64,000 bases of DNA from Janibacter alkaliphilus (GTDB lineage Bacteria > Actinomycetota > Actinomycetes > Actinomycetales > Dermatophilaceae). Below the pieces are notes generated by a model. It searched no databases, had not been told where the DNA came from, and was given only the letters and a program-made list of their open reading frames with translations. This document shows positions 3,414 through 43,745 of this stretch, piece by piece (within the stretch, counting starts at the first letter, position 1; each line of letters starts with the position of its first letter). The position numbers and the translations under genes were made by a program. Location of the stretch: positions 1,488,001 through 1,552,000 of the forward strand of contig NZ_JACBZX010000001.1 in assembly GCF_013408565.1 (NCBI RefSeq), given 5' to 3'.

Positions 3414-3432
3414 GTGTCGCATACTCGGCCGA

Positions 3433-3545
3433 AATTGCCCGGGCAGTTGCGCGCCCCGGCGGGATTTGCCCGGGCAGTTGCGCACCTGGCGGGATGTGCC
3501 CGGGCAGTTGCGCGCCCCTGGGCGAATTTGCCCGGGCAGTTGCGT
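3433..3545. repeat. Four-copy palindrome array, period about 31 bp
   Basis: The 10-bp perfect palindrome TGCCCGGGCA occurs at 3436, 3467, 3497 and 3529, each time followed by GTTGCG and usually preceded by T. The spacings are 31, 30 and 32 bases, about three helical turns, with variable GC-rich spacers between. It fills the middle of the 300-base gap between paralogues A and B, 120-240 bases before the start of B. An operator array or a tandem repeat element are both possible. No such array lies before paralogue C. Confidence 0.85.
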
Positions 3546-38862: not shown

Positions 38863-40142
38863 GCCCCACCTTCGCCTCCCTGCACGTGCGCAACTACCGC
38901 ATCTGGGCGGCCGGCGCGATCGTCTCCAACGTCGGCACCTGGATGGGCCGGGTCGCCCAGGACTGGGTGGTGCTCACCGAGCTCACCGACCACTCCGCGA
39001 CCGCGCTCGGCATCGTCACCGGGCTGCAGTTCCTGCCGATGCTGCTGCTCGCCCCGTGGACCGGCGCGATCGCCGACCGGGTGCCCAAGCGCCGGCTGCT
39101 GCTGGCCACCCAGGCCACCCTCGGGCTGGCCGCCCTCATCGGCGGTCTCCTCGTGGTCACCGGCGCCGCCGAGCTGTGGCACTTCTACGGCATCGCGCTG
39201 CTGACCGGGGTGGCCACCGCGCTCGACAACCCGGCCCGGCAGACCTTCGTCGGCGAGATGGTGCCCGCGGACCGGCTGCCCAACGCGGTCGCGCTCAACA
39301 GCGCCTCCTTCAACCTCGGCCGGCTCGTCGGCCCCGGCGTCGCCGGGGTGATCATCGGCGTCGCCGGCTCGGGGCCGGCGCTGCTGCTCAACGCGGTCAC
39401 CTTCGTCGCGGTCATGGGGTCGCTGCTGGCGATGCGCGCCGCCGAGCTGACCCCGGCCCCGCGCACGGCCGGCCGCGGCTCGGCGCGCGAGGGGCTGAGC
39501 TACGTGCGGCACCGGCCCGACCTGCAGCTGGTGCTCGTGCTCATCTTCGTTCTCGGCACCTTCGGGATGAACTTCCAGCTGACCATCGCGCTCATGGCCA
39601 CCCAGGTCTACGGGCGCGGCGCCGAGGAGTACGGGCTGCTCGGGTCGGTGATGGCGGTCGGCTCGCTCTCCGCGGCGCTGCTGGCGGCTCGGCGCAACGA
39701 GCCGCGGCTGCGGGTGCTGCTGGTGGCGCTGGTGGGTTTCGTGCTCGCCGCGACCGCCGCCGCGCTGGCTCCGACCTACCTCGTCTTCGCCGTGGCGCTG
39801 GCCGCCTGCGGGCTCACCGCGCTCACCGCGATGACCACCGCGAACGCCATGGTGCAGATGCGCACCGCGCCGGAGATGCGCGGGCGGGTGATGGCGCTCT
39901 ACATGGCGATCTTCCTCGGCGGGACCCCCGTCGGGGCGCCGGTCATCGGGTGGATCGGCGACGTGCTCGGGCCGCGCTGGACCATCGGCGTCGGCGCGCT
40001 CGCGGTCGGGATCACGCTGGTGGTGGTGTCCATCTGGCTCGCCAGGCACGAGAATGTCCAGGTGAGCTACGAGTCCCAGCGCCGCCCCCGGGTGCGGATC
40101 GCCGCCGTCCCGACCCACGACGTGCCGCAGGCCGCGCGATGA
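38859..40142 (+). CDS. MFS transporter (enterobactin-exporter-like)
   Basis: 427 residues, 12 predicted helices. It begins SPTFASLHVRNYRIWAAGAIVSN and has the motif-A-like loop GAIADRVPKRRLLL after helix 2. This N-terminus is typical of the MFS group related to EntS-type exporters. A basic C-terminal tail follows the last helix. The drug, siderophore or other substrate is unknown. The 27-residue membrane ORF overlaps its stop (ATGA), so the leader, MFS and small ORF may form one translational unit. Confidence 0.9.
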   Translation: MSPTFASLHVRNYRIWAAGAIVSNVGTWMGRVAQDWVVLTELTDHSATALGIVTGLQFLPMLLLAPWTGAIADRVPKRRLLLATQATLGLAALIGGLLVVTGAAELWHFYGIALLTGVATALDNPARQTFVGEMVPADRLPNAVALNSASFNLGRLVGPGVAGVIIGVAGSGPALLLNAVTFVAVMGSLLAMRAAELTPAPRTAGRGSAREGLSYVRHRPDLQLVLVLIFVLGTFGMNFQLTIALMATQVYGRGAEEYGLLGSVMAVGSLSAALLAARRNEPRLRVLLVALVGFVLAATAAALAPTYLVFAVALAACGLTALTAMTTANAMVQMRTAPEMRGRVMALYMAIFLGGTPVGAPVIGWIGDVLGPRWTIGVGALAVGITLVVVSIWLARHENVQVSYESQRRPRVRIAAVPTHDVPQAAR

Positions 40143-40222
40143 CGCCGCGGGTGCGCCGGATCACCACCTGGCTGGTGCTCGTGTCGCTGCTGGTCGTCGC
40201 GGCGATGGCCGCGCTGGGGTGA
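40139..40222 (+). CDS. 27-residue single-helix membrane protein
   Basis: ATG 40139 overlaps the MFS stop by ATGA. The product has a basic start (MTPRVRR) and one hydrophobic helix (about residues 10-26, ending MAALG). Small helices coupled to a transporter gene are sometimes regulators or stabilisers of the transporter. Too short for family assignment. It ends 27 bases before serC. Confidence 0.5.
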   Translation: MTPRVRRITTWLVLVSLLVVAAMAALG

Positions 40223-41377
<1,155 letters not shown>

Positions 41378-41393
41378 CCCCACCCACTCTCTG

Positions 41394-41465
41394 ATCCCCA
41401 ACCCCCTAGGCAGCTGGATGCGCTCACCTTGCACGGTGAGGGTCTGGGACGAAGGTGAGCGTCTG
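41394..41465 (+). repeat. Left 72-bp inverted repeat of the nuclease cassette
   Basis: It matches the reverse complement of 42523-42594 at 68 of 72 positions. It contains an internal hairpin CTCACC-N6-GGTGAG (41423-41440) and a second CTCACC/GGTGAG pairing at its outer part, so each end is itself palindromic in part. It begins 17 bases after the serC stop. No matching direct repeat is visible just outside the two ends. Confidence 0.92.
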
Positions 41466-41481
41466 TCGCCTGGTCGTCGGC

Positions 41482-42408
41482 TCAGGCCGCGCGGCGGGCC
41501 CGCGCGACCGCCGACCGGACGCGGGCGTCGAGCTGCTGAGGATCGTCCAGGTCGTCCGACACGACACGGACGAACTGCCAGCCGATCTCGCGCAGGTCGT
41601 CCTCGCGCGACTTCTCCTCCAGCAGCACCGCGCCGTTGGTGTACTTGAGGCGTCCGTCGTACTCGATGGCCACCCTCTCGCCCTCGACGCCCAGGTCGAT
41701 GCGGCGGGCACGACCGTTGACGACCACGGGCACCTGCGGGACCAGCCGCCAGCCGCGCACCCGGAGGGCGTCGTGGGTAAGTGTCTCGCCGGGCGACTCG
41801 TGGCGGGGGTCGAGGAGCGGCAGCGCCTCCCTGGCGGTCTCGACGCCGCGGCGCCCCCGGCGCCTCTCCAGCGCGTGTCCCAGCTGGTCACGGGTGCACG
41901 CTCCGGCGCGGAGGGCGTGGTCGCCGGCCACCAGCATCGCCGCGCGACCGCTCGTCATCCCGGTCCCGACCACGGCGGCCGCCACCGGGACGGTCGCGAC
42001 AGTCACGCCGAGGTCTGCGAGCTGAACAGCCTCCGGGGAGTCGACCAGCTCCCCGATGTGCATGCCCCCACGCGTGCGGCCGTGGGTCGCGCGCGGCCTC
42101 GCGAGCTCCACGGTGTCGAGGCGGGCGCGGGACAGCGGCAGCCCGTGGACGAGGGCGGCGGAGTGCGCGTTCGCGGCGACTGTGTCGTCGACCAGGCGGA
42201 GGGCGGCGACCGTCCTCAGCAGGTGGAGCTCGTCGGCCTCGGCCTGCACCCGTGTGGAGTACCAGCCTCGGGTCAGCCGGATGAGGTGACCCCGCCGCAC
42301 GAGGGTCTGCAGGTCGGTGTCCGAGAGGCGGCCGTCGAGGCGTGCCTGCTCCCGGCTGAAGAGGGGCGCGTCGCCGAGGTCGGGGAGCGAGATCAGGGGT
42401 CTGGTCAT
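41482..42408 (-). CDS. AbiEi-like winged-helix plus DUF559 nuclease-fold protein
   Basis: 308 residues. The N-terminus (about 1-70) resembles the winged helix of AbiEi-type antitoxins (FSREQARLDGRLSDTDLQTL, LIRLTRGWYS). The C-terminus (about 205-300) is a DUF559/Vsr-like PD-(D/E)XK fold: HESPGETLTHDALRVRG, RIDLGVEGERVAIEYDG (D-x(n)-E-Y pattern) and LREIGWQFVRVVSDD. Such proteins are common in actinobacteria and usually of unknown function. The gene almost fills the 1057 bases between the 72-bp inverted repeats, which suggests the repeats and gene move or act as a unit. No AbiEii toxin gene follows. ATG start. Confidence 0.85.
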   Translation of the reverse strand: MTRPLISLPDLGDAPLFSREQARLDGRLSDTDLQTLVRRGHLIRLTRGWYSTRVQAEADELHLLRTVAALRLVDDTVAANAHSAALVHGLPLSRARLDTVELARPRATHGRTRGGMHIGELVDSPEAVQLADLGVTVATVPVAAAVVGTGMTSGRAAMLVAGDHALRAGACTRDQLGHALERRRGRRGVETAREALPLLDPRHESPGETLTHDALRVRGWRLVPQVPVVVNGRARRIDLGVEGERVAIEYDGRLKYTNGAVLLEEKSREDDLREIGWQFVRVVSDDLDDPQQLDARVRSAVARARRAA

Positions 42409-42522
42409 CGCTGCATGCTGTCGAACGACGACCCAGCCCCCGCCGAGTTATCCACAGCGTCGAGCGCGGACGAGCCCCCGGACGTCGCCTGGACGCCGGG
42501 GGCTCATCGAGCTGAAGAGGCA

Positions 42523-42594
42523 CAGACGCTCACCTTCGCCCCAGACCCTCACCGTGCAAGGTGAGGGCATCCAGCTGCCTAGGCAGTTGGGGAT
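42523..42594 (-). repeat. Right 72-bp inverted repeat of the nuclease cassette
   Basis: It is the inverted partner of 41394-41465, with four mismatches, and includes CTCACC-N6-GGTGAG (42548-42565) and CCTAGG (42578-42583). It lies 115 bases upstream of the nuclease-like gene and 45 bases from the citrate synthase stop. The 114 bases between the gene start and this repeat hold no further gene. Confidence 0.92.
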
Positions 42595-42638
42595 TCGGGA
42601 CCGGCGCGCACAGGGCGGGGGTGGGAGGTGGGGGGGCG

Positions 42639-43745
42639 TCAGGAGGGGGAGGGGGCGCGGTAGCCGGCGACGTCGCTGAGCGGGCGGGGGCCCGGGCCGA
42701 CGTAGCGGGCGGAGGGGCGGATGAGCCGGCCCGTGCGCTTCTGCTCCAGCACGTGCGCCGACCAGCCGGCGGTGCGGGCGCAGGCGAAGAGAGGGGTCAT
42801 CATCTCGCCCGGCACCTCGGCGAAGTCGAGCAGCACCGCGGCCCAGTAGTCGACGTTGGTCTCCATCGTCCGGTCCGGGTAGCGCTCGGCGAGCTCGGCG
42901 ATCGCCGCCTTCTCCAGCTCCAGGGCCACCTCGTAGCGCGGCGCACCGAGCCGCTCGCAGGTGTCCCGCAGCACCGCGGCCCGCGGGTCGTAGGCCCGGT
43001 AGACCCGGTGCCCGAAGCCCATGAGCCGCTCCTTGCGGTCCAGCGCCTCCTTGACGTACCGGGTGGCGTCGCCGGTGCGCTCGACCCCTTCGATCATGTG
43101 CTGCGCGCGCGACGGGGCGCCGCCGTGCAGCGGGCCGGAGAGCGCGCCGATCGCCCCGGAGAGGCAGGCGGCCGCGTCCGCGCCGGTGGAGGCGATGACC
43201 CGGGAGGTGAAGGTGGAGGCGTTCATCCCGTGCTCGGCGGCGGAGATGAAGTAGGCGTCGATGGCCTCGACGTGCGCCGGGTCCGGCTCGCCGCGCCAGC
43301 GGATCATGAAACGGTCGACGATCGTCCGGCCCTCGTCCACCCGCGACTGCGGCACCATCGGGCTGTCCTGCCCGTGCGCCGACTGGGCGACGAAGGACAG
43401 CGCCATGACCGAGGCCCGGGCCAGGTCGTCGCGCACCTGCTGCTCGTCGATGTCCAGCAGGGGCCGGAAGCCCCACACCGGCGCCAGCTGCGCCAGCGCC
43501 GACTGGGCGTCGACCCGGATGTCCCCGGTGTGCACCGGCAGCGGGAAGGGCTCCGCGGGCGGCAGCCCGGGGTCGAAGCCGTTGTCCACCAGCAGGCCCC
43601 ACACCTGACCGAAGCTCACCCGACCGACCAGGTCGTTGATGTCGACGCCGCGGTAGCGCAGGTTGCCGCCGGCCTTGTCCGGCTCGGCGATCTCCGACTC
43701 GAAGGCGATGACGCCCTCCAGCCCCGGCCTGAAGTCGTCGGACAT
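42639..43745 (-). CDS. Citrate synthase 2
   Basis: 368 residues. Catalytic segments are SAAEHGMNAS (His), LSGPLHGGAPS (His), MGFGHRVYRAYDPR (oxaloacetate-binding His and Arg) and the downstream Asp/Arg region ending HVLEQKRTGRLIRPSARY. It condenses acetyl-CoA with oxaloacetate; members of this short clade may act as a second citrate or methylcitrate synthase. ATG at 43745, AGGAGGAT-like purines just upstream. It faces serC across the inverted-repeat cassette. Confidence 0.92.
   Translation of the reverse strand: MSDDFRPGLEGVIAFESEIAEPDKAGGNLRYRGVDINDLVGRVSFGQVWGLLVDNGFDPGLPPAEPFPLPVHTGDIRVDAQSALAQLAPVWGFRPLLDIDEQQVRDDLARASVMALSFVAQSAHGQDSPMVPQSRVDEGRTIVDRFMIRWRGEPDPAHVEAIDAYFISAAEHGMNASTFTSRVIASTGADAAACLSGAIGALSGPLHGGAPSRAQHMIEGVERTGDATRYVKEALDRKERLMGFGHRVYRAYDPRAAVLRDTCERLGAPRYEVALELEKAAIAELAERYPDRTMETNVDYWAAVLLDFAEVPGEMMTPLFACARTAGWSAHVLEQKRTGRLIRPSARYVGPGPRPLSDVAGYRAPSPS

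Follow-up and report, generated by a model that had tools for sequence, protein, structure and literature searches.

A nuclease gene bracketed by short palindromes in Janibacter as a probable member of a REP-like system

What does a lone nuclease gene enclosed by inverted repeats represent, one system of enzyme and repeats or a gene that happens to lie between them? The question arises in a window of 64,000 nt (the whole stretch of DNA that was analysed, positions 1488001-1552000 of the one-contig, 3,323,277-base Janibacter genome G000; coordinates below are those of the window unless a contig is named). A repeat search placed two inverted arms at 41394-41466 (plus strand) and 42522-42594 (minus strand), each 73 nt long, 95% complementary and 1055 nt apart, and the runner-up inverted pair in the 2.8 kb examined reached only 34 nt and 76%. 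A single gene lies between the arms (41482-42408, minus strand, 308 aa), in agreement with the preliminary description, which had compared this layout with REP/RAYT units and regarded the arms as the ends of a cassette. Our answer is that the cassette probably belongs to a REP-like system, whose enzyme, a fusion of an AbiEi-type DNA-binding domain with a Vsr/DUF559-type nuclease, would be associated with its own family of short palindromes.

The enclosed gene had been described as coding for an AbiEi-like domain followed by a DUF559 (Vsr-type PD-(D/E)XK) domain. The second half of this assignment holds, the C-terminus being a match to the Pfam MTES_1575 restriction endonuclease family (39.1 bits, cut-off 38.2), but the N-terminal AbiEi matches are weak (best PADLOC AbiEi E 5.8e-6), and Pfam AbiEi_4 is found in 16 of 29 aligned homologues. 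Residues D238, E249 and D251, which we take to be the active site by analogy with Vsr-type nucleases, are invariant in all 29 homologues, together with nine other residues. The predicted structure (mean pLDDT 94.2) has as its top Foldseek match the AbiEi antitoxin 6y8q (E 5e-5, TM 0.40 by target), the only match with E below 0.001, and as its fourth the catalytic domain of the homing endonuclease I-Bth0305I, 3r3p (E 3e-3, TM 0.71 by target); a sequence-profile search reaches 3hrl (E 0.025) and 3r3p (E 0.16), both weakly. The earlier statement that no transposase is present extends to the Y1 family (PF01797) in the whole genome, with no match in a search that was positive in 5 of 14 control genomes. 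No AbiEii partner gene adjoins the window gene, whose neighbours are serC and citrate synthase, and the genome carries five DUF559-type genes.

The site itself is arranged differently in the congeners. The serC gene (40250-41377, plus strand) ends 16 nt before the left arm and the citrate synthase gene, citS (42639-43745, minus strand), ends 44 nt from the right arm. In all 14 congeners read, serC faces an MFS gene and shares its strand with citS, downstream of which it lies; its orientation here is inverted, and the two congeners that could be seen in full have a gene of about 290-300 aa between citS and serC. Within 40142-43745 of the window serC alone is inverted and the gene of about 290-300 aa is absent. 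The nuclease gene does lie between serC and citS, as had been noted, but a simple splitting of the pair is not what is found. None of the 14 congeners has a DUF559 match between citS and serC, which gives the empty sites that the earlier proposal had called for. A distant DUF559 gene is found close to serC, between the MFS and NCS2 genes, in G004, G013 and G014 (L183, L192 and L193, respectively); these genes form a separate DUF559 lineage, and their flanks have no repeats in common. Pedococcus, Phycicoccus and Terrabacter also have DUF559 genes near serC or citS. An ancestral citS-DUF559-serC arrangement was considered and rejected, since the Pedococcus and Phycicoccus genes at that place are not the nearest homologues in the tree, so that simple ancestry does not account for the window site. 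That the two arms are almost identical is compatible with recent local copying or gene conversion, although a distant pair of copies of the same repeat is as alike (94%).

The arms are not ends belonging to this cassette, contrary to the first reading, and the idea of unique terminal repeats had to be dropped: the dispersed 73-nt element to which both belong (family R1) has 46 copies in this genome, and solo copies elsewhere were one of the kinds of support that had been asked for. One arm gave 44 matches in the genome by blastn, and a search with a sequence model gave the 46 copies, three of them in a short symmetric form, a count that leaves out one coding-region hit, partial hits on the opposite strand of places already counted and six weaker places (E 0.2-0.6). 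The 30 best copies average 80% pairwise identity over a 68-nt core. According to the gene caller all 46 are intergenic, and in eight cases the open frame before the element runs 5-13 nt into it. The element is composed of related 12-nt units, namely CCTAGGCAGCTG, an inverted pair flanking TGCA, and GGTGAGCGTCTG. In the left copy the outer 20-mer CCAACCCCCTAGGCAGCTGG (41398-41417, plus strand) is followed by an inner quasi-palindrome, CTCACCTTGCACGGTGAG (41423-41440, plus strand), and by the conserved 3' half-unit GGTGAGCGTCTG (41454-41465, plus strand); in the right copy the corresponding features, all on the minus strand, are the 20-mer CCAACTGCCTAGGCAGCTGG (42571-42590), the inner quasi-palindrome (42548-42565) and the half-unit GGTGAGCGTCTG (42523-42534). 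The symmetric variant, two 5' halves facing each other, is found at G000:C1:3217593, 2758046 and 2818038.

The 43 asymmetric copies favour the space between convergent genes (22 copies, with four between divergent genes); among 91 intergenic regions used as controls 14 were convergent (P 4e-5). There is no significant orientation bias relative to tandem genes (12 of 17, P 0.14). The 45 nt or so 5' of the elements are G-poor and contain 56-59% C, compared with 41% after control stops. This C-rich tract (42595-42640 in the window, for example) is independent of the direction of the neighbouring gene, and it could be a target preference, a rut-like tract or a G4-forming one. Pairs of neighbouring copies at most 1.2 kb apart number four, where random placement gives 0.73 on average (four or more in 26 of 5000 random sets); by identity, two of these close pairs rank in the top three of all pairs (97%, and 94% for the window pair), and a third has 84% identity. 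Mean pairing over the whole arm was 9.4 of 14 against 8.5 in shuffled arms, with one of 5000 shuffles as high, and a hairpin therefore is or was present in the element. However, RNAalifold gave six pairs and no compensatory change, and a conserved RNA structure or function is not what this excess of pairing establishes. An Rfam search over 2.8 kb returned one weak match, below its cut-off, and no target-site duplication, such as accompanies the ends of a MITE or composite transposon, was evident by eye in the flanks of 30 copies.

In the relatives searched, the 73-nt element is nearly absent. Its 71-nt consensus matched none of 15 congeners at E 0.01, with one weak 26-nt match in another genus; the best congener match with the sequence model (E 0.013) is no better than the weak hits of this genome. 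The 18-nt core, at one mismatch at most, occurs once in each of three of 185 other family genomes. Plasmids gave one partial match to the element (36 nt, E 0.5) and viral contigs two matches to its 18-nt core. Also, 44 of the 46 copies have no DUF559 gene next to them. The element brackets one of the five DUF559-type genes of this genome and, within 1.2 kb, three further short genes, so that a 73-nt bracket by itself proves little. Within this genome alone the link between the nuclease and the element looks weak and would favour coincidence. A reading of the bracket as chance between two 3'-end elements would draw on the 44 copies away from DUF559 genes and on the eight preceding frames that enter the element (five in a set of 30 copies); comparison with other nuclease genes overturned it.

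In the tree the window gene stands at the base of a clade of ten Janibacter genes (support 100/100), together with a paralogue in the same genome, at 154920, and eight congener genes. These genes occupy several genomic places, and 20-mer palindromes adjoin all ten of them, on both sides in nine, which answers the preliminary description's call for genes of one kind bracketed at more than one locus. The 20-mers follow a common plan, GCA-N4-(CCTAGG, CCTAAG, CTTAAG, CCTACG, CCTATG or CCCGGG)-N4-TGC or near it, whose letters vary by species: GCATTGCCCTACGGCAATGC in G005, GCATTTCCCTAGGGAGATGC in G003, GCAGGAGCCTAAGCAGTTGC in G006, GCAAAACCCTAGGGTCTTGC in G008 and, on one side only, GCATGACCTTAAGGAGATGC in G012. 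The window 20-mers are the counterparts of this plan in its form GCA-N4-CCTAGG-N4-TGC, CCAACCCCCTAGGCAGCTGG being symmetric at 14 of 20 positions and CCAACTGCCTAGGCAGCTGG at 18 of 20. The window gene has the CCTAGG-centred type and its paralogue the CCCGGG-centred 20-mer GCAACTGCCCGGGCAAATCA, and two paralogues in one genome are thus accompanied by two palindrome types. The type is common to the tree sisters in G006 and G013 and near-identical in G005, G007 and G010. The 20-mers of the ten genes have GCA/TGC-like triplets at both ends, with no GTAG or CGTC there.

These palindromes are dispersed as well. When up to three mismatches were allowed, the forward matches of the palindrome TGCATTSCCCTANGGCAATGCA, of the TGCATT type, numbered 117 in G005, 94 in G007 and 144 in G010, and its control had none. 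With up to two mismatches, the 16 Janibacter genomes gave 96, 83 and 132 matches in the same three genomes, 28 in G011, 14 in G008, 13 in G012, and 4, 2 and 1 in G001, G009 and G015, with none in the seven others. As G011, G008 and G012 have either no clade gene in the tree or one flanked by another palindrome type, high copy numbers accompany a nuclease of the same type and smaller numbers occur without one. The type flanking the paralogue (G000:C1:154920-155813, locus L032) was found at 61 places, mostly arrays, in 400 kb sampled from this genome at even intervals (control 0), which extrapolates to about 500 places per genome; one such array, of four CAACTGCCCGGGCA-N6 palindromes, lies in the window itself at 3430-3542 (minus strand). 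A third DUF559 gene of this genome (G000:C1:3122412-3123230, L033) has GACAGTCCTAGGACTGTC-like palindromes on both sides that are seemingly not dispersed, with two places in the 400-kb sample and two for the control. In G046, from another genus of the same family, dispersal is modest, the types of three genes occurring at 4, 2 and 1 places per 400 kb (controls 0).

The spacing between neighbouring palindromes is regular. Same-strand neighbours of the 154920 type within 120 nt of each other are 30-33 nt apart in 55 of 55 pairs, and the three opposite-strand pairs are at 28, 29 and 60 nt; among TGCATT-type neighbours in the fetched loci the distance is 41-44 nt in 16 of 20 and 30-32 nt in the other four. 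Such spacings, near three and four turns of B-DNA, suggest that proteins bound to the palindromes would sit on one face of the DNA.

The same observations bear on the possibility that the palindromes are operators, through which the AbiEi-like domain would keep its own gene, and perhaps a regulon, repressed, with the nuclease as a toxin or defence effector and the dispersal brought about by other means. AbiEi represses at its own promoter, and the AbiEi-like fold of the window protein and the presence of palindromes upstream of all ten clade genes (solely upstream in L151) would suit such a role. However, in nine of the ten genes palindromes also lie downstream, three congeners have about 100 or more dispersed matches per genome, the asymmetric 73-nt copies sit 22 times between convergent genes and only four times between divergent ones, and the window gene lacks an adjoining AbiEii partner, all of which makes a purely regulatory explanation unlikely.

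Occupied and empty sites can be compared around hisC. A nuclease with palindromes lies within about 1.5 kb of hisC in seven genomes (G003, G005, G006, G007, G008, G010 and G012) and the hisC neighbourhood has no nuclease in six (G000, G002, G004, G009, where the contig ends close to hisC, G013 and G014); three genomes gave no hisC hit. The clade plan is seen with varying letters even within this one orthologous neighbourhood. At five of the six empty sites clade-plan 20-mers are missing as well, and the two that remain in G014 are perhaps relics. G013 carries the sister of the G006 gene elsewhere, with the same palindrome type, and next to the empty site of G013 hisC has the opposite orientation. 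Around the nuclease the order of the genes differs between species, as do the directions of hisC and its neighbour (L194-L198, L353-L365), as if palindromes had mediated local inversions. Recombination between inverted palindromes would explain the inversions of both serC here and hisC in G013.

Copy number changes between near relatives too. G006 and G013 could be aligned over 165 kb at 94% identity, and six of the eight G006 palindrome sites were alignable; the number of copies differed at all six (3/2, 1/0, 3/2, 3/1, 1/3 and 2/1 in G006 and G013, respectively), although in tandem arrays such changes can also arise by ordinary slippage or recombination.

Is the bracketing a property of this clade or of the gene family? 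In 36 genomes or named records we compared the two 400-nt flanks of each of the 78 DUF559 genes whose flanks were usable, and counted as positive those with at least four shared 12-mers. The loci came from the homologue search results, 40 further regions down the same table, the genes of this genome and the serC neighbourhoods; eleven table entries, mostly near contig ends, were skipped before flanks were inspected, and L160, L162 and L035 gave no usable row. Flanks were shared in 53 of the 78 genes and in 31 of the 36 genomes or records (26 of 37 genes in Janibacter, 27 of 41 elsewhere), and outside the clade of the window gene in 44 of 68. Control genes from the same loci shared flanks in 3 of 119 cases, and controls of 180-500 aa from 1.2 Mb of four genomes did so in 14 of 600 at any spacing and in 2 of 75 where the gaps on both sides were at least 100 nt (P 3e-19); with DUF559 genes left among the controls, the rerun gave 4 of 78. 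One shared 18-mer as the criterion gave 47 of 78 DUF559 genes against 2 of 78 controls. A stem of at least 8 bp lies in the longest shared segment at 23 of the 53 loci that shared flanks, and in 1 of 53 after shuffling; as 30 loci lack such a stem, not every shared repeat is a clear palindrome. In L165 (G017) as many as 149 direct 12-mers are common to both flanks, which makes this a long direct duplication and not a case of short palindromes. Three further serC-proximal DUF559-like genes outside the set shared 19 (L076), 0 (L100) and 7 (L126) 12-mers.

The tie between repeats and DUF559 genes that had been proposed is therefore found family-wide, but it is incomplete: the flanks are not shared in 25 of the 78 genes, including L034 of this genome, the serC-adjacent genes of Pedococcus and Terrabacter and L151, with its one-sided array, in this genome two of the five DUF559 genes have no shared flanking repeats, and 44 of the 46 copies of the 73-nt element have no DUF559 neighbour.

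The nuclease gene could also be a passenger, if some host or mobile function spread the palindromes and cassettes were captured between them by homologous recombination. Genes of the clade at different loci in different species would fit this, as would the inverted hisC of G013 and the inverted serC here, which recombination between inverted repeats could produce. The bracketing is, however, specific to the DUF559 gene family (2 of 75 spaced controls), and a passenger would not be expected to come, in one genome, as two paralogues with a CCTAGG-centred and a CCCGGG-centred palindrome each; we regard capture as quite improbable. That the window is a coincidence, the 73-nt elements being terminator-like or REP-like 3'-end elements of serC and citS with the DUF559 gene merely between gene ends, is very improbable, for although each window copy follows the serC or citS stop codon in the same orientation, after C-rich, G-poor DNA, and 44 of 46 copies are away from DUF559 genes, it leaves the bracketing of nine other clade genes and the family-wide excess unexplained, and neither the 12 of 17 tandem orientations (P 0.14) nor the excess of close pairs (four against 0.73) agrees with it.

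We therefore return to a nuclease tied to its own palindromes. At the level of sequence comparison, the palindromes that bracket the gene are scattered over intergenic DNA; their letters differ from species to species but the bracketing persists; their copy number turns over fast; and gene and palindromes are present at a given site in some species and absent in others. Since solo ends were found in this genome, and bracketed genes and empty sites in relatives, the REP/RAYT analogy is well supported as architecture. The further suggestion that the enzyme moves or copies the repeats can be put as follows. The AbiEi-like part would bind the palindrome, probably as a dimer, and, with neighbouring palindromes spaced by about 31-32 or 42-43 nt, which is three or four helical turns, the bound proteins would face one side; the nuclease part would nick or cut at the palindrome, and repair from another copy could then add, remove or seed palindromes. 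Since palindromes at other places are homologous to both ends of the gene, repair might occasionally carry it along as well.

REPs are a long-known class of bacterial repeats, and in excerpts from two accounts the enzymes tied to them are Y1 transposases (PMC3733652, PMC6006769); a 2013 survey, in the part available to us, left one large REP class without any enzyme (PMC3733652). Our literature search, in open-licence PMC papers, found no link between DUF559 genes and dispersed palindromes. It seems to us an even bet that AbiEi-DUF559 nucleases with their own palindromes form a second, independently evolved REP system, in which they produce dispersed intergenic palindromes and spread them across Actinobacteria by site-specific cutting and copy-repair, and that they may be the missing partner of some RAYT-less REP families. 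If so, the REP lifestyle would have at least two origins, one of them with a different fold and chemistry, and part of the DUF559/MTES_1575 genes, now annotated by domain alone, would have a role. It also makes REP spreading directly testable with purified proteins and cognate or non-cognate palindromes.

Compared with known systems, the cassette shares with REPtrons and REPINs, as far as excerpts describe them, short palindromes that frame a single gene for a DNA-acting enzyme, and one palindrome type per gene with many dispersed intergenic copies (PMC3733652, PMC6006769). Except for the L033 type, the flanking palindromes are also dispersed, and congeners have different 20-mers that are common to near relatives, both as in REPtrons. 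The enzyme, however, is a PD-(D/E)XK-type nuclease with an AbiEi-like domain and not an HUH Y1 transposase, and the clade 20-mers have neither a GTAG nor a CGTC foot. With no Y1 transposase and no GTAG foot, the cassette is therefore not a member of REP/RAYT proper. The CGTC-tagged REPs are likewise dispersed palindromes for which, in the excerpted part of the survey, no Y1 transposase partner was found (PMC3733652), but here there is an associated gene, and CGTC is missing from the ends of the clade 20-mers. The AbiEi antitoxin of the type IV toxin-antitoxin system AbiE (PDB 6y8q) is the best Foldseek match, though with a TM of only 0.40 by target, and differs in that the domain here is fused to a nuclease, the window gene having no adjoining AbiEii nucleotidyltransferase gene. 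I-Bth0305I, a selfish nuclease cutting a specific site, is Vsr-like and resembles the window protein in the fold of its catalytic domain (PDB 3r3p, TM 0.71 by target) and in conserved acidic residues; here, unlike there, no intron is involved, whole palindromes and not split sites flank the gene, and the sites are many and dispersed. Occupied and empty sites exist here, with whole palindromes on both sides of the gene. Beyond the association itself, we infer a system that would be homing-like in its chemistry and REP/RAYT-like in its layout.
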